A DNA stretch of 64,000 bases. It comes from Dermatophagoides farinae (taxonomy: Eukaryota > Arthropoda > Arachnida > Sarcoptiformes > Pyroglyphidae). Positions within the stretch are counted from its first letter, which is position 1; every line of letters begins with the position of its first letter. Below the pieces are notes generated by a model, which ran no database searches, was not told where the DNA came from, and worked only from the letters and a program-made list of their open reading frames with translations. A program made the translations under genes and the position numbers. This document shows, in pieces, positions 6,341-16,647 of the stretch. Location of the stretch: NCBI RefSeq assembly GCF_024713945.1, contig NC_134679.1, positions 5,001 through 69,000 of the forward strand, written 5' to 3'.

Positions 6341-8134
6341 ATGGGCCCCACCCGTAAACCGACAGCAAAAAAAATCATAAAAGTTAGTGAGAAAGCATCT
6401 CCAATAACAGAAAATATCAGAGTGTCAACAGCATCTCCAGTCATGAGCAAACAAACCATAGAAATCATGGAGGATGACTCAAACGAACAACCAATGACAA
6501 ACATTGATTTTACGCAACCATCCACCAGCAGACATATTGTTACACAACCAATCACCACTTCACACAATATCGCAACAACATCACACATGAATGTCAACGT
6601 TATGCCTCAACGTCATACATCAAGACATAACATAATCACAAGCAATGTAAATACATCAACAAATGCCCAATATACATCCAATACAGTGCCACCGTCCACA
6701 ATCTATATGCCGACACAATCACAGACACAGTACACGTCACAACAATACACACAGCCACAACAACAAATCCCGCATCACACACAGACATACGGCACTTCAT
6801 CATTTGATTATCGGTACTTACAATCCACAGTTTTGTCTAGACCTCCGACGCCTGTACAATTATCATCATCACACACCCACATGCCGTTATCAACACAACA
6901 ACCGTTAACGACAACCATCACTCGCACAAACCCACTTAATTCAAATTTACAACAACCAGTGATAACAGAAGACATCCACTACATCACTGATGCATTAGGA
7001 ATGGCCATGGATCTTAAAGGAAACATCAGCACGGAGAAAAAATTTCAAACAATAACGGCCTTGAAGATCGCAATCAATTTGCATACCGAAAACCAGGCAT
7101 TAAAAGAGCAACTGTCAACCAACGCCAAGCGTAAGCGACATATCTACGACGAAGAAAAAGAAAGTATTCTAGGCGACGATGAAGACAGTCTCGACTCCAT
7201 TGCAGAAATGAAAATGTGTATCCTGGATCTAAAACATAGTGTTAAAAATTTGACCGAAATTATAATGGGCCAAAAGAACAACAACGTAACCAACACCAAG
7301 GTGAATAAACCGGTTTCTTTTGCCGACATCGTAAAAGAAAACAAGAGTGCATCCACGCCTAGACACCAGACTGTGATTTCAGTAATCGACAACACCGACA
7401 CCACCATAACCAGAAAAGTGCTATCCGACCTGATTCAACCAGCAAAACACGGCATTGATATGACTGGAGCTCAAGGTCTATCCAATGGCAAGATGATTCT
7501 AGATTTCCGAGATGAGCAGAGCAAAAATAAATTCAACAACATCGCTGTAGCTACAAACAAAATTATTGCTGAACCACCCAGAAAATTGGCTCCAACGATC
7601 TTCCTGAAAGGGGTGAGGAAAGATATTGACAAAAACATGATTCCAGAAATGTTCGCGAGCTTCAACCACCTAATCGAACAACATGTTACCAGCAATAATC
7701 TGGAAATCAAAAACCTGGTTCAAATCGTGAATGAACGTACGAATTTTCGTAACAGTGATCGGCTAATCAATTACGGTGTTACTGTCGATCCCAAGATCCG
7801 TGATATCATCATCAACGATATGGCTGGAAAAATCATTCTCGACTTCTCAATGGTCCACGTCGAAGACATGTCTCCTCTGCGGCAGTGTTACCGATGTTAC
7901 GGATTTAATCATAAGGCTGAAAAATGCCAGCTGAAACCGGAAGACCAGCTCTGCTTTCATTGTAGTGGACGTCATCATTTTAATCTATGTCCAAATAAGC
8001 ATCTGGAGCCTCGATGCACCAACTGTGTGAAAACTGGCATCAAGGACAACATCTTCCATAGCAGTGTGAGTAAAACATGTCCCGTCTACACCAGAATGCT
8101 AATGCGTATTGCCAACAAAATTCAATATAATTAA
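6341..8134 (+). CDS. ORF1 (Gag-like, CCHC zinc knuckles) of element B
   Basis: 597 residues from the first ATG (6341); the open frame extends upstream to a TTG at 6269 but has no earlier ATG. The N-terminal half is Gln/Thr/Ser/His-rich and low in complexity. A charged region follows (KRKRH near residue 265), then a conserved Gag-like core including PTIFLKGV near residue 420. The C-terminus has two clear zinc knuckles (CYRCYGFNHKAEKC and CFHCSGRHHFNLC) and a looser third Cys/His cluster starting CTNC. This layout is typical of ORF1 in R1-clade and jockey-type elements, where the protein binds element RNA and, in telomere-specific members, helps bring it to telomeres. The reading frame is intact and overlaps ORF2 by 26-32 bases. 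Confidence 0.88.
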   Translation: MGPTRKPTAKKIIKVSEKASPITENIRVSTASPVMSKQTIEIMEDDSNEQPMTNIDFTQPSTSRHIVTQPITTSHNIATTSHMNVNVMPQRHTSRHNIITSNVNTSTNAQYTSNTVPPSTIYMPTQSQTQYTSQQYTQPQQQIPHHTQTYGTSSFDYRYLQSTVLSRPPTPVQLSSSHTHMPLSTQQPLTTTITRTNPLNSNLQQPVITEDIHYITDALGMAMDLKGNISTEKKFQTITALKIAINLHTENQALKEQLSTNAKRKRHIYDEEKESILGDDEDSLDSIAEMKMCILDLKHSVKNLTEIIMGQKNNNVTNTKVNKPVSFADIVKENKSASTPRHQTVISVIDNTDTTITRKVLSDLIQPAKHGIDMTGAQGLSNGKMILDFRDEQSKNKFNNIAVATNKIIAEPPRKLAPTIFLKGVRKDIDKNMIPEMFASFNHLIEQHVTSNNLEIKNLVQIVNERTNFRNSDRLINYGVTVDPKIRDIIINDMAGKIILDFSMVHVEDMSPLRQCYRCYGFNHKAEKCQLKPEDQLCFHCSGRHHFNLCPNKHLEPRCTNCVKTGIKDNIFHSSVSKTCPVYTRMLMRIANKIQYN

Positions 8135-11100
8135 TCATCAACCATCCAAAACCGAAAACCTCCGTATAGCTCAAATCAATTGCAATAAATCACCGACTGC
8201 TCTTTCACAGTTTTTAACCTTCTGCGACGATAATAAAATTGACATAGGAATCATAAGTGAACCTCCTTTACGAAACAACATACCATCAATCAACAGTAAA
8301 TTTAAACCAATGTATGTGACAAATCAGCTTCAATTACCGACGAATAATCAACGCATCACTCGACGACAAAGTGCTTCAAACAATCAATCAACATCCAACA
8401 ACGACCAATCAAATAATAATAATCAACCAGCTGTTCGTGCTTGTATCATTTTACTTAATTCATCATTATCGTCAATCATCATAACACATCTTTCAAACAG
8501 TGATTTCATCGTCGCCAACATCAACAATATTATCATAGCATCTGTGTATAGTGAACCGAACGGCAACATCAACAATACAATCAATTGTGTGATCAATACA
8601 ACCAATTATGCCAACAACAACAAATGCATCATTGCCGGTGATTTCAATGCTAAATCAATTTACTGGGGTGAACCAACATCAGATGAACGTGGCCACGAAA
8701 TAATGTTAACGATAGTTCAGTGTAATCTGCATATTTTGAATGAAGGAAATAGGCCAACATTTGACACTGTGCGTGGTCAGCGCAGACTCACCTCATGCAT
8801 TGATCTCACCTTAGTAAACAACAATCTTATCGATCAAATCAACAATTGGCATATTCATGACGAAATCCATCTGAGCGATCACCGACCTATTACCTTTGCC
8901 ATCACTGACCAATGTATTGATCACCAACAAAACCAATCGACAACCAAATGGAACACGACCAACATAAATTGGACCGAATGGAGCTCAGATATCGAGTATC
9001 AGTTGCATGATCACAATTTGTCCGCCACCACTATCAACAACATCAATGACACCAACGAACTGGATCTTGCCGTTATAATAATCACTGTATCCACTCAATT
9101 TGCATGCAACCAACATTGTGGTAAATATCGACATAAACGTATACGACCAGCAAAATGGACGAGCAATCAATCACTATTGGACATCACAAAGAAACAAAAA
9201 GCAATTTATCGAAAAATCCGTCGATGCCACAATCCGTTCACGATAGAGAGATTAAAAAATGAATATATGATCGCCAGACAGCAGTATCGTGACATATCAC
9301 AATCTTTAAAAAATGATGATTTCAACAAGTATCTAAATGGCCAAGGACCAGAGAACTGTTATCAGAAGGTCTGCCGGATGCTCAAAAATAGTGATGTCAT
9401 GGTTGCTCGAACAATTGAAGGTACAAACAGCCCTATCGAATCCACAACAAAACTGGTCAATTCATTATTTCCTGATGACGATTTTGACGATAGTAATGAA
9501 CAGCACGAGATACGTCAATTTACAAAAAAATGGCTGGAGAAAAACAAAAACAATACTGGTGTTACAGCTGTTTCGCTGCTAGAGCTGAATAATGTCATTC
9601 ATAAATTCCGTGACGGCAAAGCACCAGGCTTCGATGGTATATCACCGCGAATTTTGAAAAATCTTTGGCTCTCTTTTCCTGACCTGCTGCTCGCTTTATA
9701 TAATGCATGTCTTCGACTAAAATATGTACCGTACCTGTGGAAAAGCTCGATTATTCGTATATTACCGAAACCAGGTCGTGACGACTATAGCAAAACCAAC
9801 GCTTATCGACCTATTGGTCTGATTTCCGTCTTGGGTAAAGTATTGGAACGAATAATATCAATACGAATCACCAATCATCTTATCAGTAATGGCCACATGT
9901 CAGATTATCAATATGGTTTTATAGCTGGCAAATCTACTGATCATGCATTACTGAATCTACACAACGACCTGGAATCAGCCATCACCAGATTTAAGCACGT
10001 CTGTCTAATTTCGCTCGATATCAGAGGAGCTTTTGACCATACGTGGCATCCATTTATCATCAATCAATTGATCAATTATCGTGCGCCAAAATACTTAATC
10101 CAGCTGATTGATGCATACCAAAACGATAGACGAATCACAGCCAGTTATGGAGGCGTCACATGCAACAAGACGACCAATAGGGGAACCGTTCAGGGTTCAA
10201 TTCTGGGGCCATTGATGTGGAATCTGGTGGTGAATGATCTTCTCCGCAAAAATTTCGGTCTGGATGTGAAAATTCAAGCCTATGCCGACGACGTCACCAT
10301 GGTCGTGGCCTGTGATTGCATCAAATACATGCCGGTTAAAATAAATAAAATCCTGGAAATGGCCGCCAGCTGGGGACGTAAATGTAAGCTTACATTTTCC
10401 GAATCGAAAACCAAAATCATGTACGTTTCAAAGAAAATTGCACGTCCAATATATCCACCGGTAAGAATGAATGGCGCAATTATTGATCCAGTGAAAGAAA
10501 CAAAAATTCTTGGCATAATAATTGATCATAAGCTTGATTATCGGCCTCATATTAAATATGCCATCGCCAAAGCCACGAGAATTAACAGAGCTGTAACTGG
10601 TATCGCTCGTAAGTCGCATGGTCTCAGCCCTCAGGTGCTAAGAATGATATACCATAGCATCACAGAGCCAATTATGTCTTATGGTGCCTTGATTACCGGT
10701 AGGGCTGTCAAATATCAGCATATCCAAAAGATCCTCAGACAAATGGTCACACCAATGGCACAACAAGTTGTAAAAGCATATAGATCGTCTTCATACATAT
10801 CGGTTACAGCATTGGCTGATTTCCCACCTATCGAATTATTCATTGGATTCAGAGCAGCAATAGCGACAGCAAGAACAACAGGTCAGTATAAATATAATGA
10901 TTTACCAATTACAGTAGATATAAATGACGATCTCAACAACAATACAACGAGCAAAATTACCACCATCATCAAAGAACCATCAGCATCACCACCGCTTAGA
11001 ATCATAATTAAATCCATCAAAACAACAATGGGCGTCGGTGCTGCATTCATGATTTTTAACAGCAATAATATTATTGGCGTCAAACATTATCGTCTTGCTC

Positions 11101-11837
11101 CTTATTGTATGCTACAACAAGCTGATCTCTTTGCCATAATGAAAGCAACAAATTGGATAAATGAAAATAGCAACAATCAAACGGTATATATCATCACCAA
11201 CAACATAAGCACGGTACAACACATCAATCGTATTGACAGGAAAAACAGGCAAAGATTAGCAAATGAAATAATCGACAAATCCATTGATAATATTGTGATC
11301 GCCTGGAACAAAGTGGATAAAGCTGAACCATGGTATCACAGGCTCAAAAAATATGCAAAAATAACAGCCAACAACCGTTCACGAGATTACGACTACACCA
11401 GGATGCCCATTAGCTTCGTCAAAAAATATGAACACAACAATATGATGATAAGCTGGAACGATAGATATTTAAGAGATCGATTTGGCACAAATATCAAAAA
11501 GCTATGTCCGAATCTACATGACGCACGTAAGTTCGTCCCATACGTTAACAATTTCGTCACCCAGACGTTAACTGGTCACGGACAATTTGGTGCTTATCTA
11601 TCAAAATTTGACATATCGAATGACAAAAAATGTTGCTGTGGTTTCCGATTTCAATCAGTTCAACACCTCATCAATGATTGTCAAATGTTGAACCATCTAA
11701 GACGTGATTATCGAATTTCAATCAATAGTACCGACGATGCCAGGGAAAAAACCAGGTTAACAGCAGTCTTTTACGGTAATATTGCAATGTTTGCTGATCA
11801 ACATAGAAGATCAATTCATCGTTTACATCCACCGTAA
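8109..11837 (+). CDS. ORF2 (APE endonuclease / reverse transcriptase) of element B
   Basis: About 1,240 residues, uninterrupted. The frame opens after a stop at 8100-8102 and has no ATG before the conserved endonuclease start LRIAQINCNKS; 8109 is a TTG and only marks the overlap. Domains: APE endonuclease (QINCNKS, IIAGDFN near 8629-8649, LSDHRPITF near 8872-8898); reverse transcriptase (SLDIRGAFDHTWHP, RGTVQGSILGPLMWN, catalytic AYADD near 10279-10293); an RNase H-like region with altered catalytic positions (about 10990-11370); TGHGQFG; and a C-terminal C-x1-C-x8-H-x4-C zinc finger (near 11630-11680). Expected to nick telomeric DNA and reverse-transcribe the element RNA there. How it is translated is unclear, because its frame is +1 relative to ORF1 and lacks a start codon. 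Confidence 0.9.
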   Translation: MPTKFNIINHQPSKTENLRIAQINCNKSPTALSQFLTFCDDNKIDIGIISEPPLRNNIPSINSKFKPMYVTNQLQLPTNNQRITRRQSASNNQSTSNNDQSNNNNQPAVRACIILLNSSLSSIIITHLSNSDFIVANINNIIIASVYSEPNGNINNTINCVINTTNYANNNKCIIAGDFNAKSIYWGEPTSDERGHEIMLTIVQCNLHILNEGNRPTFDTVRGQRRLTSCIDLTLVNNNLIDQINNWHIHDEIHLSDHRPITFAITDQCIDHQQNQSTTKWNTTNINWTEWSSDIEYQLHDHNLSATTINNINDTNELDLAVIIITVSTQFACNQHCGKYRHKRIRPAKWTSNQSLLDITKKQKAIYRKIRRCHNPFTIERLKNEYMIARQQYRDISQSLKNDDFNKYLNGQGPENCYQKVCRMLKNSDVMVARTIEGTNSPIESTTKLVNSLFPDDDFDDSNEQHEIRQFTKKWLEKNKNNTGVTAVSLLELNNVIHKFRDGKAPGFDGISPRILKNLWLSFPDLLLALYNACLRLKYVPYLWKSSIIRILPKPGRDDYSKTNAYRPIGLISVLGKVLERIISIRITNHLISNGHMSDYQYGFIAGKSTDHALLNLHNDLESAITRFKHVCLISLDIRGAFDHTWHPFIINQLINYRAPKYLIQLIDAYQNDRRITASYGGVTCNKTTNRGTVQGSILGPLMWNLVVNDLLRKNFGLDVKIQAYADDVTMVVACDCIKYMPVKINKILEMAASWGRKCKLTFSESKTKIMYVSKKIARPIYPPVRMNGAIIDPVKETKILGIIIDHKLDYRPHIKYAIAKATRINRAVTGIARKSHGLSPQVLRMIYHSITEPIMSYGALITGRAVKYQHIQKILRQMVTPMAQQVVKAYRSSSYISVTALADFPPIELFIGFRAAIATARTTGQYKYNDLPITVDINDDLNNNTTSKITTIIKEPSASPPLRIIIKSIKTTMGVGAAFMIFNSNNIIGVKHYRLAPYCMLQQADLFAIMKATNWINENSNNQTVYIITNNISTVQHINRIDRKNRQRLANEIIDKSIDNIVIAWNKVDKAEPWYHRLKKYAKITANNRSRDYDYTRMPISFVKKYEHNNMMISWNDRYLRDRFGTNIKKLCPNLHDARKFVPYVNNFVTQTLTGHGQFGAYLSKFDISNDKKCCCGFRFQSVQHLINDCQMLNHLRRDYRISINSTDDAREKTRLTAVFYGNIAMFADQHRRSIHRLHPP

Positions 11838-12109
11838 TCATATGAATATCATTAACCGGTATTGCATCGTGGTTGCCAAATATGCTCAGCTAATTTGATT
11901 ACATTGCTTGGCGTCTGCTCACCGATCTCCGGGACCACGCCAAACCGTCACGAGCATAGCTCGTGAGGTTTGGCTCGAAGCTCACTCCTCCAGGACCACC
12001 CGCCAAACCGTCACGAGCGTAGCTCGTGAGGTTTGGCTCAGAGTTCACTCCTCCGGGACAGCGCCAAACCGTCACGAGCGTAGCTCGTGAGGTTTGGCTT
12101 GCGGACATT
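11838..12109 (+). other. Region between ORF2 of element B and telomeric repeats
   Basis: About 100 bases of plain sequence are followed by three hairpin repeat units and then CCTAACCTAACC. No poly(A), no AATAAA and none of the TGGCCATTGCCGA tail seen in elements C, D and E. It may be the true 3' UTR of B or a foreign block joined to it. Confidence 0.6.
11939..12098 (+). repeat. Three tandem hairpin units (GCCAAACC...GGTTTGGC)
   Basis: Hairpins at 11939-11974, 12002-12037 and 12063-12098, period 61-63 bases. Each has a lower stem GCCAAACC/GGTTTGGC, a small asymmetric internal loop (GT opposite A), an upper stem CACGAGC/GCTCGTG and a three-base loop (ATA, GTA, GTA). A CTCC(A/G)GGAC motif precedes each. 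A fourth unit lies at 17667-17702. No match to a known structured-RNA class comes to mind. Confidence 0.9.
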
Positions 12110-12127
12110 ACCTAACCTAACCTAGCC
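12110..12127 (+). repeat. Short telomeric repeat block (CCTAA)n
   Basis: Two perfect CCTAA units followed by CCTAGCC. It separates the hairpin block from element C. The strand orientation (C-rich strand on +) matches all other telomeric junctions in the window. Confidence 0.85.
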
Positions 12128-12308
12128 TCTGCTAGGGAAGGGATGGTATGGTATCTGCTTGCAAACATACACACAAGATCTTATCCAAACACACCAGAAT
12201 TTATCCACACACACACCAGTTTTTATTATGTTAAACACACCCACATAAGATACAACATCTGTAACAGACTTCTACATACACACACAAAAACACTTTGCAG
12301 CAGTACCA

Positions 12309-12351
12309 AATTGACATTTCCGGGTGGCTCCCGTAAATCGCTATGTCAATT
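12309..12351 (+). ncRNA. Stem-enclosed pseudoknot-capable motif, copy 1
   Basis: Outer stem AATTGACAT / ATGTCAATT (9 bp, perfect) encloses GGG-T-GGC-T-CCC-GTAAA-TC-GCT. GGG can pair with CCC while the loop GGC pairs with the downstream GCY, giving an H-type pseudoknot. Structure is inferred from sequence; no function is known to me. Confidence 0.55.
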
Positions 12352-12540
12352 AACCAGCGGAGGACCAGGACGTGAAGCTCGACCAAAACAACAGCGTGAC
12401 CACACATACACAACAATCATTACAAGAATTAATCCACAGTAATTTAATTTAATGTTCCACACAAACAATGGACACAACACCTGTTACCAGACCCTACACT
12501 CACACATAGAACACAACATAGGGCCACTTGTGGTCACGCG

Positions 12541-12584
12541 CACCAACAGTCCCAGGGTGGCCCCCGTAAACAGCCACTGTTGTG
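12541..12584 (+). ncRNA. Stem-enclosed pseudoknot-capable motif, copy 2
   Basis: The outer stem CAC(c)AACAGT / ACTGTTGTG differs completely in sequence from copy 1 but is fully paired apart from one bulge. The core reads GGG-T-GGC-C-CCC-GTAAA-CA-GCC. A core conserved inside a stem that changes on both strands is the signature of selected RNA structure. Confidence 0.6.
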
Positions 12585-12921
12585 TGCAGTTGCCTAGTAA
12601 TCAAAGTATTAACGATTCAAGCTGGAGCAAATCAAAATCAACATGAAACGGCATCTCATCATATTTGGCCATACTAGTCAACAACAAAAACAACATTAAA
12701 CAATAGCAACGTAATTTATCGTCTGTTCCAACACAGCAACGTAAATCGATGAAATAATGTACCGGTAGTCCAAAAACAACAACAAACAGCGGCCTGCATC
12801 CTTCTCACAGCTTTCCGATCCATGATCCATAGTATAAGAAAATTTTGAAAAAAATCAACAGAAAACAACCGGATCAATGGTAGTGGCACTTCACAACAAA
12901 AGAGTCAAAAAAAAAATAACG

Positions 12922-12947
12922 GCATGTGAAGTATTAACTTCACATGC
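12922..12947 (+). repeat. Perfect 11-bp inverted repeat
   Basis: GCATGTGAAGT, four-base loop ATTA, ACTTCACATGC. It lies inside element C and has no obvious partner elsewhere in the window. Confidence 0.85.
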
Positions 12948-15111
12948 AATTCCATCATTGAAGTCTGTTCCAATAATTTGAAACGTCTATGGCTCATCCA
13001 ATGGTATGTTTCCCGCCACATAAACGCAACAGACTATATGGCCTAAATATGGTATAAATCAAGTTAACATATGAACAAGTGCACAATGATCATCATCATA
13101 AAAATTAATAATATAGTATATATCATATTTCTGCGGCCCATCCATTTGAATATATCCGTCATGGCCATTCATTGGGTACCATCAACAGCAACAACATACG
13201 TCCCATCGAATTGAACAAATACTGGCAGGATCTACAATTAAAAAACAGAAATCAACAATCAATATAATTATTACAAATAATAACAAATATTACCGGTATT
13301 GGAACGATAAAATCAACGGGTTAAAAACAAACGTAACCACCATATAAAACAACAGATTCAATAAGAAAGCAACAGTATTCAACATTATTTGACTAGAATC
13401 CTAGAGAAAAACAAAAAAACAAGAATCAACAGTATTTATAATTATCAAAAATAGTAACAACATCACCAGTATTATAAAAACGATAAAACCAATCAACGAG
13501 AATATAAAACCGAAAAATCAACAAGAATAATCAACAAAAACCAACAGTATTAATTAATTTAAAATCACCATGGACGAAACCAACAAACAACTAAAATCAA
13601 TGATAAAACAAAAGAAGAAAAATCAACAAATTTTAAATTCAACGAATAATAATAATTACCAATGAAAACAATTATAAACGACCACAATCCAAATCAATAA
13701 TTTATATAACAAGAATCAACAATAATCGGCAACAACGATAACAATAACAATCAGCATAAAACCGATAATTTAAAATCTGAAAAATAAAATCAACAACAAC
13801 AAGAATCAATAATATCAACAAGTAAACAACAACACTTACCAGTATTCATTTGACAAAATAACAACAACGAACGAATAGAATCAACAAGGCACCGCCAACG
13901 CATAAGAAATATTCTGTAAAGAAAAATCAATATGGTATACAATTAATTATAATGATTATCAACAATATCACCGGGCAACAAATGATGGTTTTGACGATTA
14001 AAGAAATGATACAACCACATAATGATGACAACGATTCTAATGGAATATCATAGACTGATCTCGACACCAAACAGCACGATGATATATGAATATTAAAATG
14101 GAACACCAAGAATTTACCATCAACATTGGATATGGCTGGCAGAACCACAATACAACACCAGTAGCAACAACGAAACCAAAACCAGCATGGCAAAACATGA
14201 CAATGGCGTTTTGCAATAATCATGACAACTGAGTGGCATTTACAATCAACAATTAATCATACAGTCAACATTGAACGAAAAAAAAAAGAAAAATTGGCCA
14301 ACTCACTAGCAAAACAACGTAAGTCATGCAAAAATCTTAGTCCATTCATAACAATGTCAATGTACACGCATGCACACAAACAAAGAAAACAAAGAAAACA
14401 ATCTTTTCTTTTTGGCGCCAATTAACGCCCAACAAATAGATCATGAAACAAAAATCCATTTTCTTGTATACGAATTGACCATTATCAGACATAGTTTTTA
14501 CTATTTTGTGTACCACTTGTACATCGAATACACCACTAGGACACAAAAACATGCTACAAATTTTTCAATATAAAAATCTTGATGAAACAAGCAATCGTTG
14601 CGATTTACAACGACCTAGTGTTGTGATGAAAGACATTTTTCAATCTTTGATTTTCTCTCCCACACACCGCGTCATATTGTATCCAATCTTGTCGATTTTC
14701 ATCTTTGTCGTTTTCTTTTTCATTTCTTCACGACAATCATCGACACATACACCATACAAAACACACATTCATTTACACAGCCATCTACACACACGTCTTG
14801 GCCCGTTGGCTCAAACATGTCACAATACATAGGACACACAGGGTCTTTCTTTTCCTTTCCTTTTCTTTCTTCCCACACATACAAGAAATGGACACATTTT
14901 TATTTTTGGAATCATTTTCTTTATTCAATTTTATTGTTGTTTTTTTTTATTATTATTTTACTTATGTTTTTTTTTTTCTGATCCATTGATATCAGTCTTT
15001 TATTTGATTCTGTATTATTTTTGAGGTCCTTGGTTTGGCCATTTGCCGACCTATTTTAAAAGAAAGAAAATAAAATTTAATTTTTTAATTAAAAAAAAAA
15101 AAAAAAAAAAA

Positions 15112-15118
15112 CCTAACC
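15112..15118 (+). repeat. Telomeric junction CCTAACC between elements C and D
   Basis: A single telomere-type unit directly follows the A tract of element C and directly precedes the 5' sequence of element D, giving a head-to-tail junction. Confidence 0.8.
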
Positions 15119-15175
15119 ATCATACACAAACACTGGACACAACACAAAACACACCAACACGTACATATAGTACCA

Positions 15176-15222
15176 GTCTGTTTCAGTTTCAGGGTGGCAC
15201 CCGTAAACAGCCACTGACAGAC
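15176..15222 (+). ncRNA. Stem-enclosed pseudoknot-capable motif, copy 3
   Basis: Outer stem GTCTGT(tt)CAGT / ACTGACAGAC encloses GGG-T-GGC-A-CCC-GTAAA-CA-GCC. It lies about 60 bases from the 5' end of element D, which points to a role at the 5' end of the element RNA. Confidence 0.6.
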
Positions 15223-15861
15223 GGCTAGTGGAGAGACACTTCATTTGTATTGCTATTTTGAATGCCTTGGTGGCCATCAACATTTTTATGTAAAGAAGAA
15301 ATTTCAGTTTAACATTTAATTCGTCTCTCTCAACACAGTAATATATATCTAACCCATCCAATGCTAACCTGCCACATTACCGCCACTTTTTATGAACAAT
15401 TGGCCATGATGGTTGACATAGATCCAATCTTCACCGGCAAATGATAGGTATACACATCCACTGGCAAATGTAAACAATGGCAAACGCTGCTTGGCATGAT
15501 GAAAGTATAATTGAAACATCGATTCACTGAATAATTTCGATTAAAAATAACAAAAAATAATGGCCAAAAAATAATATAATAATCATGTACAGCTGGCCTC
15601 GTTTCATCAAAACCACCATCCATCATCAATATCAATGAATCAAAGGCAACATATATGAAGTGTTTGATACAAACGATGGTCTATCAGTTGATGTATGATT
15701 TAATTTGATCATTCCATAATCCATCATTTATGGCATCGAATTCCCGGAACGTCCAACTGGCCTGCCGATATGCACATGTGACACAGGATACTTGATTTTA
15801 CTATTTATTTATTTTATTTACTTATTTATTTATTATTCAATGATCAATGCAACACACTACA

Positions 15862-15916
15862 CAATCGGGAGGTCACAACGAGTAGGGCAGGCACCCGTAA
15901 AAAAGCCGATCGATTG
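15862..15916 (+). ncRNA. Stem-enclosed pseudoknot-capable motif, copy 4 (divergent)
   Basis: Outer stem CAATCG / CGATTG, with a longer 5' linker, then GGG-CA-GGC-A-CCC-GTAAAAAA-GCC. The core pairing is kept although the linkers differ from the other three copies. Confidence 0.5.
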
Positions 15917-16647
15917 TTACCCGTTCAGGTTGAACCAAATGAAAATTTCAAAAATTGATAAGAATAATTGCATCAGACAATCATTTGGCCTAATTCATAA
16001 TTATCAGTTAAGTGCTACTTAGCATCATTTTCCATAATTGCCTATGATGAAATTGAAAACAAATCGATCATCAAAATGAATATAATATCGTGGCAGAAGC
16101 GCTACGGCATACACAGTGACCATTCAAATCGATTGTACAACTGCAACACCCCCTTGGCAACGAAACCAACGTGGTATCGTCCTGATGCATTGCTCACTGT
16201 GATAATGTTGTTGTCAAGGCTTTTTAAAATGCAGTGCTCGACTTAGTATAACAACAGCATGATCATCATCAGTATTATAAACCATTGAACATTAATTTCG
16301 GACACACATGATGATAAATCGAGCATGAAAAATTTTCAATATAACAATGTGTATAAAAACCACGCTGAAATCGAGTTCATTAAGACCTAGTTTTATGCTG
16401 CATCAATGTCGAAATTTTCACTGATTTCATCATATACTTTTCGTCTATGTATCGTCGTGAAATTTTGACCTGCAAATTTTAAATTGTGCTGAAATTTTAA
16501 TCTGTGATCAACAACGTCGAATTGTGTGGCTGTGACCTACGACACATCGTGTCCTGTCACCTTCCCATTTACTGTTATCTTTTGAACATTGACTGTGATT
16601 TTGTCGATCTTTCACCTGTGTTTTGTGCTTCGAGTCGGCTGGTGCAA

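Follow-up and report, generated by a model that had tools for sequence, protein, structure and literature searches.

What does a short, recurrent RNA fold do among the retroelements at the chromosome ends of a mite? The question is raised by a 64,000-nucleotide (nt) stretch of Dermatophagoides farinae DNA (contig NC_134679.1, positions 5,001 to 69,000; C3:5001-69000 in our contig numbering, and 'the window' below). An original prediction, made from its letters alone, described four places that share a short core enclosed by outer stems of different sequence. It interpreted them as a stem-enclosed H-type pseudoknot under selection in the 5′ regions of retroelements, and suggested a self-cleaving ribozyme, an internal ribosome entry site (IRES) or a protein-binding site. 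Our sequence comparisons make it nearly certain that a selected RNA fold exists and that it sits in the 3′ untranslated region (3′UTR) of its host elements, which are telomeric retrotransposons of the non-LTR (long terminal repeat) type. There, it may act as a docking site for a protein.

A stem-enclosed pseudoknot and its covariation

The motif is about 40-50 nt in size. Its closing outer stem, P1, is free in sequence, and encloses two stems of 3 bp each: S1 (GGG/CCC), the inner one, and S2 (GGC/GCY), that of the pseudoknot, which pairs a strand in the S1 loop with a strand set against P1; the loop crossing S1 bears NUAAA. H-type pseudoknots are found in frameshift signals, telomerase and riboswitches, and the mite motif has their topology (S1-L1-S2-L2-S1′-L3-S2′) and their A-rich L3, but it has only 3+3 bp and lies inside an outer stem that adjoins S2.

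When both strands of the window were searched, the full core matched exactly four times, at the four predicted places, and it was never found in 100 order-2 Markov simulations of the window (both strands). All four copies are on the forward strand. Copies 1 and 2 belong to one element, A, and copy 4 to a 5′-truncated element, D, within limits that we infer. Copy 1 (A1, 12309..12351) has P1 AATTGACAT/ATGTCAATT, linker TTCC, S1 GGG/CCC, L1 T, S2 GGC/GCT and L3 GTAAATC. Copy 2 (A2, 12544..12582) has P1 CAACAGT/ACTGTTG, which is 1 bp longer than predicted, linker CCCA, S1 GGG/CCC, S2 GGC/GCC and L3 GTAAACA. Copy 3 (C, 15176..15222) has the same core, linker TTCA and P1 GTCTGT+CAGT / ACTG+ACAGAC with a TT bulge, and sits in a short fragment of roughly 255 nt, also of inferred limits, between the poly(A) junction of element A and element D. 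Copy 4 (D, 15871..15921) has linker GTA, S1 GGG/CCC, L1 CA, S2 GGC/GCC and L3 GTAAAAAA, with an imperfect P1, CAACGA/TCG-a-TTG (+GGT/ACC). The stem that it has in common with its relatives is CAACGA/TCG-a-TTG, 15876-15881 with 15910-15916; these relatives read GGGTACAACGA...TCGATTGTTACCC or GGGTCCAACGA...TCGTTGGCCC. The predicted outer stems were thus right for copies 1 to 3, apart from the extra pair in copy 2, whereas CAATCG/CGATTG at 15862 had been misassigned to copy 4.

We compared the contiguous pairs of each outer stem with those in shuffled flanks for 12 copy types, in a test that allows for neither bulges nor mismatches. Seven of the 12 had P < 0.05 (A1 0.0004, I1 0.0012, B1 0.008, A2 0.012, B2 0.022, F 0.026 and G 0.033). 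The other five were C (0.12), H (0.19), E (0.34), the window D copy (0.53) and D (0.60); the stems of C, H and D are bulged and that of E is mismatched. In pseudoknot-free folding, most of P1 forms in all four window copies and S1 in A1 only, the core of the others taking other pairings. The folding z-scores (A1 -2.7, A2 -0.1, C -2.0, D -0.6) are weak, so energy alone would not have revealed the motif.

The evidence that carries the fold is compensatory change. Among seven A-like seed copies, 97.6% of base-pair cells are paired, both members of 6 of the 12 pairs have changed, and the covariation score is 0.587 versus 0.206 in shuffles. A covariance model built from these seeds, R1, recovered divergent copies outside the seed set (J1, J2, K1, K2, M, M′ and variants of I), and these show new compensated pairs; copy N was added by patterns and further sequence. 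The R1 alignment holds all 46 matches at E up to 0.01 (23 distinct rows), with D, E and G not included, and it leans towards the structure because R1 itself produced it. In this alignment, 97.7% of base-pair cells are paired versus 78.9% in shuffles, both members have changed in 9 of 12 pairs versus 6.0, and pairing drops to 31-56% when the partner is slid by 1-3 columns. Further pair types are not clearly more numerous (19 versus 16.9 in shuffles, a value reached in 79 of 500). Double changes occur at all six P1 pairs and at two of three S2 pairs, whose variants are GGC/GCC, AGC/GCT and GGT/ACC, with changes of GC to AT and CG to TA. At S1, one of three pairs is doubly changed (GC to AT), weakly, in a single row. 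Mismatches include G.A in S1 of M and M′ and C.A in P1 of K2. Both crossing helices are thus backed by covariation, S1 weakly, as a stem-enclosed H-type pseudoknot under selection would have them. This covariation, together with the recovery by R1 of compensated divergent copies, supports a selected fold.

A second, hand-made alignment comprises 22 chosen types and was drawn to the structure by the analyst. Near-duplicates are not part of it, nor are the window D copy, two decayed D copies (C2:8382629 and C8:7834), an I2 variant with ATAAA, and the C10 variants of A1 and A2, in one of which S1 is spoiled and reads GGT. Of its 154 P1 cells, 141 are paired; when the 3′ strands were redealt among the rows, the mean was 79 and the maximum 115 paired cells (20,000 trials). 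Outside the stems, UAAA alone is kept in all 22 types, though the seeds and patterns favoured UAAA. A minor-groove contact of the H-type pseudoknot would explain it.

Could the copies be alike simply because the elements are kin, with stems that are accidental? All copies but one weak match do lie near contig ends, the home of related elements, and when the D-G class is analysed by itself (10 matches in 7 distinct rows), 83.5% of its cells pair versus 82.0% in shuffles. As judged by shuffling, the covariation that the original prediction expected of a larger alignment is present in the 46 R1 matches and slight in this class. The class is small and closely related, D is bulged, P1 is 69% paired, and a slid partner lowers pairing to 28-48%. 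Against mere kinship, pairing has been kept through many changes elsewhere. Cores found outside the mite also mostly lack stems: the outer stems average 7.4 bp in 18 distinct mite flanks, all from cores whose L1 is one nt long (D-G, J2, M and N excluded), versus 2.3 bp around 37 cores in prokaryote (35) and viral (2, with a looser pattern) stretches. The Mann-Whitney p of 4.5e-9 is too small, since the mite flanks are related. The exceptions among the 37 are a viral contig (L060, 8 bp) and a metagenome-assembled genome (L085, 5 bp). We observed the best R1 score among them in another metagenome-assembled genome (L095:33-68, 28 bits); this core and that of L060 are probably chance. With the stricter pattern, viral contigs gave no core match, and of 24 viral stretches that fit a pattern for the second open reading frame (ORF2), none encodes a relative. 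A structural scan for P1, S1, S2 and a TAAA loop found two motifs each in the 3′UTRs of A, B, I and K, one in H and nothing else, missing both D 3′UTRs because of the bulge; in shuffled 3′UTRs, the rate was 8 motif-like folds per 1.44 Mb. The original prediction had named, as evidence against itself, copies in which the core is kept and outer-stem pairing is lost; there are few of these, among them at least C2:8382629, part of whose stem is gone. We therefore regard accident or mere copying as exceedingly improbable.

Telomeric host elements and the place of the motif

In the 62,435,336-base assembly (22 contigs), the pattern matched 31 times, 43 times when up to 3 mismatches were allowed, and 9 times in its D-G form, with no match to the reversed-pattern control in any case. 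Merging gave 54 distinct sites, including one absent from the three pattern lists; the site list and stem starts were typed by hand from these lists, and repeat counts are lower bounds. All but one lie within 50.5 kb of a contig end, and the remaining site, C2:3902900 (3 mismatches, central), is probably chance. The motif-bearing ends belong to C1-C4, C6-C8 and C10, and no other contig appears in the three pattern lists. Two further C1 sites (family M), seen by the model only, are within 4 kb of the C1 end. With C2:3902900 set aside, the motif is on the forward strand at left ends (25 sites) and on the reverse strand at right ends (25), with three exceptions, all in the first 10 kb of C8. There (C8:1-10000), TTAGG repeats and motifs alike are inverted relative to other left contig ends, possibly through a scaffolding error.

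At several contig ends, two-ORF elements are found among TTAGG/CCTAA repeats, which bears out the predicted retroelement context. In element A (forward strand), ORF1 (6341..8134) encodes 597 amino acids (aa) with two CCHC-like knuckles near the C-terminus, detected by regular expression and also present in B and X. ORF2 (8310..11837) encodes 1175 aa with Exo_endo_phos_2 and RVT_1 domains and YADD, that is, an endonuclease (EN) and a reverse transcriptase (RT). The 3′UTR (11838..15112) holds A1 and A2, and its poly(A) run (15091-15112) is followed by CCTAACC, so that the junction with the telomere repeat spans 15091..15119. In 11 of 12 poly(A) runs examined, CCTAAC or CCAACCTAACC follows directly; the exception belongs to an X copy on C2. 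Among the named relatives of ORF2 are D. farinae proteins, one of which is annotated tras3, in keeping with the mite host assumed in the original prediction. SART and TRAS elements insert in opposite directions, according to the portion of PMC7265360 available to us, and the same portion describes amplification of the SART 3′ junction with a CCTAA primer; the latter suggests that the mite elements have the TRAS orientation. The EN and RT domains of ORF2, the CCHC knuckles of ORF1 and the sense-strand junction of poly(A) with CCTAA thus point to TRAS-like elements, a grouping that draws on domain content, junctions and a named homologue.

On C4, we observed an array of head-to-tail element A units of about 9.7-9.8 kb each (C4:9376-33591, L032-L035), in which no long run of poly(A) immediately precedes the ORF1 of the second unit; short 5′-truncated copies ending in poly(A) follow the array. 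In this array, the motif also lies about 3.5 kb before the next ORF1, with 3′UTR-like sequence in between, which may explain why the motif had been placed in 5′ regions, near the 5′ ends of two elements. The retroelement part of that claim stands, but the motif is in the 3′UTR.

The order in element A is the ORF2 stop (11837), hairpin repeats, CCTAACCTAACCTAGCC, A1, A2, poly(A) and CCTAACC. The C1, C3 and C4 copies are 97.8-99.6% identical over the stretch that runs from the ORFs past the motifs to poly(A), and could be segmental duplicates, so divergent lineages weigh more for the placement. In all of A, B, I, H, K and D, the motif follows the ORF2 stop by 306-472 nt: about 472 nt in A (450 and 455 in two other C4 copies), 372 in B, 452 in I, 466 in H, 306 in K, and 403 and 429 in D. 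The distance from motif to poly(A) is about 2780 nt in A, 2249 in B, 1598 in I, 2198 in H and 1490 in D (range 1490-2784), which hints, for these few lineages, at a spacing that is steadier to the stop codon than to poly(A). In element M on C1, which is 5′-truncated, a single piece carries the hairpin block, CCTAACC, the motif and poly(A). Lineages A, B, I and K have two motif copies.

This position bears on two functions put forward in the original prediction, both now disfavoured by the 3′UTR location and by copies that span the motif. Hammerhead ribozymes are found in other retroelements, and the small, conserved, pseudoknotted core would suit a new self-cleaving ribozyme. However, copies running from ORF2 to poly(A) span the motif in five lineages, which argues that the RNA that was reverse-transcribed had not been cut there, and UAAA alone offers little for an active site. 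The Rfam 15 search of the window gave 11 matches with E up to 5, none of them at the motif, as had been expected of an RNA outside known families. HDV (hepatitis delta virus)-like ribozymes occur in R2 elements, in the part of PMC3774820 available to us; this class sits at the exact 5′ end of the element and cuts there, and a motif in the 3′UTR was rejected as a member. All told, a ribozyme is very unlikely. An IRES or other translation signal is, in our estimate, highly improbable. Pseudoknots do occur in IRESs and frameshift signals, and there are open stretches between motif and poly(A) of 156-207 aa in three of six D copies (for example, L036:2277-2897) and of 205 aa in K. Nevertheless, the motif lies after ORF2, and no ATG-started stretch of at least 120 aa was found between motif and poly(A) in the examined copies of A, B, I and H or in the other three D copies.

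Two neighbouring features accompany the motif. Tandem repeats of 62-63 nt (11927..12099, forward strand; 2.8 copies by Tandem Repeats Finder) each contain a hairpin (CCAAACC..TCACGAGC-RTA-GCTCGTGA..GGTTTGG), the first repeat having a fold z of -4.8. The same block follows ORF2 in lineages A, B, M, K and I, perhaps as a second conserved RNA element. Between it and the motif, the internal telomere-like CCTAACCTAACCTAGCC (12111..12127, forward strand), kept in the A and B 3′UTRs, is perhaps a relic of an old 3′ junction.

A possible docking site or block to decay

The function that we favour, though tentatively and with a likelihood that we would not put as high as even, is that of a cis-acting RNA element in the 3′UTR of TRAS-like elements that serves in ribonucleoprotein (RNP) assembly or RNA stability. 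A protein that packages the RNA or protects it would recognize the fold by its shape and dock there, often at two copies. This protein could be the element's own ORF1 product, with its two CCHC-like knuckles, or a host factor, and docking would help the RNA to survive and to form an RNP that returns to the telomere. The pairs of copies in A, B, I and K would suit multimeric binding. When A, B or I is compared with the distant H, what they share outside the 3′ end is the motif core and the sequence just upstream. As a precedent, PMC7265360 describes SART1Bm proteins acting in trans on RNAs with the 3′UTR of that element.

Several findings weigh against this reading, among them the slight covariation of the D-G class. 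The core is near-invariant while the ORF2 proteins of the main motif groups (A/B, H, I and D) are 36-48% identical in the comparisons listed, which favours a host partner or an intrinsic RNA mechanism over a co-evolving protein. Such constancy fits contacts within the RNA that depend on particular bases, a partner from the host, or a mechanical block. Lineage X, with at least four long copies in the sequence examined, shows no motif in three 3′UTRs scanned structurally; R1 run without filters on one of them gave only 8.7 bits (window 4736) and 5.4 bits (3733), taken as noise. Finally, the motif is not the only conserved part of the 3′UTR. We compared nine 3′UTRs, one per lineage and two of X, with limits set by the analyst, and found three kinds of island that lineages have in common. 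One is the hairpin block and another the motif region, the latter in A, B, M, K, I and H. The third, the 3′ end before poly(A) (in the window, for example, 14862-15118), links all nine, those of X included, though not every pair.

This third island, the 3′-terminal block, is a better candidate than the motif for the site where reverse transcription is started, so the motif probably has another task. That the motif itself is the signal by which the element's RT recognizes its RNA and begins target-primed reverse transcription is therefore unlikely. Structures in 3′UTRs play such a role in other LINEs (long interspersed nuclear elements), and SART1Bm requires its own 3′UTR, in what was available of PMC7265360, but the mite motif is 1.5-2.8 kb from poly(A). 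Because of this distance and of the absence from three X 3′UTRs, membership in the class of LINE 3′UTR elements recognized by RT was rejected.

How X came to lack the motif depends on its placement. In an 18-row ORF2 tree with outgroups other than Bombyx, A, B and K group together (K through P0006, identical to a K fragment over 521 aa), as do H, I and D (a fragment), and the motif-less X joins the latter group with support of only 84/80. One old origin of the motif and a loss in X is the simplest reading of this tree; another placement of X would change it.

The main rival to docking is an exoribonuclease-resistant RNA (xrRNA), in which the pseudoknot stops Xrn1 in the 3′UTR and leaves a stable, polyadenylated RNA of 1.5-2.8 kb. 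We consider this possible but not probable. The location in the 3′UTR, the duplication in several lineages, the short G-C pseudoknot with an A-rich loop and the near-invariant core all fit a block to decay. However, the solved xrRNAs known to us place the pseudoknot partner outside the enclosing stem, and here it is inside. The placeable 5′-truncated copies, a small and unsystematic set read by eye, begin upstream of the stem and none at it: about 40 nt upstream in J, 57 in C, 440-650 in M, 495 in the window D copy, about 650 in G (C8), 1070 in D (C6) and 1600 in D (C2). Among the closest known systems is the coremin xrRNA (xrRNA-C), which also lies in 3′UTRs and has a short hairpin followed by a GU(U)AAA spacer; in the available part of PMC10520033, its rules are a 4-bp first hairpin with loop YGAD (or a 6-nt variant, YGNNAD), the spacer, and then a second hairpin. 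In the mite motif, by contrast, the second stem encloses the hairpin rather than following it, and the pseudoknot strand adjoins this second stem. The loop is UGGCN in 12 of 18 A-like types, UGGUU, UAGCC or CUAGCC in the others, and of 6 nt in D (for example, CAGGCA); it is not YGAD, so membership in the coremin class was rejected. More broadly, the duplicated, stem-locked 3+3-bp pseudoknot could define a decay-resistant or otherwise autonomous class of RNA that yields a stable 3′UTR RNA at telomeres, which we hold to be doubtful. We know of no such RNA device in a cellular telomere retroelement.

Among other known RNAs, the pistol ribozyme has a hairpin loop that pairs downstream, an A-rich UAAA linker and a third stem that lies wholly downstream. 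The mite motif resembles it in the first two respects, but its third stem encloses everything and it has no Rfam match. Among telomeric retrotransposons, TRAS and SART resemble the mite elements in having two ORFs, EN and RT domains, CCHC-like knuckles in ORF1, poly(A) beside CCTAA and arrays at chromosome ends; the mite 3′UTRs differ in their length of 2.6-3.3 kb (B and A, respectively), their pseudoknot, their hairpin block and their internal CCTAACC. Our literature search found no prior description of such a pseudoknot, although most subscription papers were outside its reach and it is weak evidence of novelty. Another close system is SART1Bm, also a telomeric LINE, whose 3′UTR RNA is needed for mobility in trans; as far as the available text of PMC7265360 goes, that 3′UTR is apparently about 461 nt long with stem-loops, whereas the mite fold is a pseudoknot far from poly(A).

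The clear covariation, the size of the motif and its many natural variants make short transcripts a direct way to test its function. To our knowledge, very few species have telomeric retrotransposons with known structured RNA signals. If the motif protects or packages RNA, it would show how elements that dwell at telomeres keep their RNA, and if it blocks an exonuclease, it would extend xrRNAs from viruses to animal retrotransposons.

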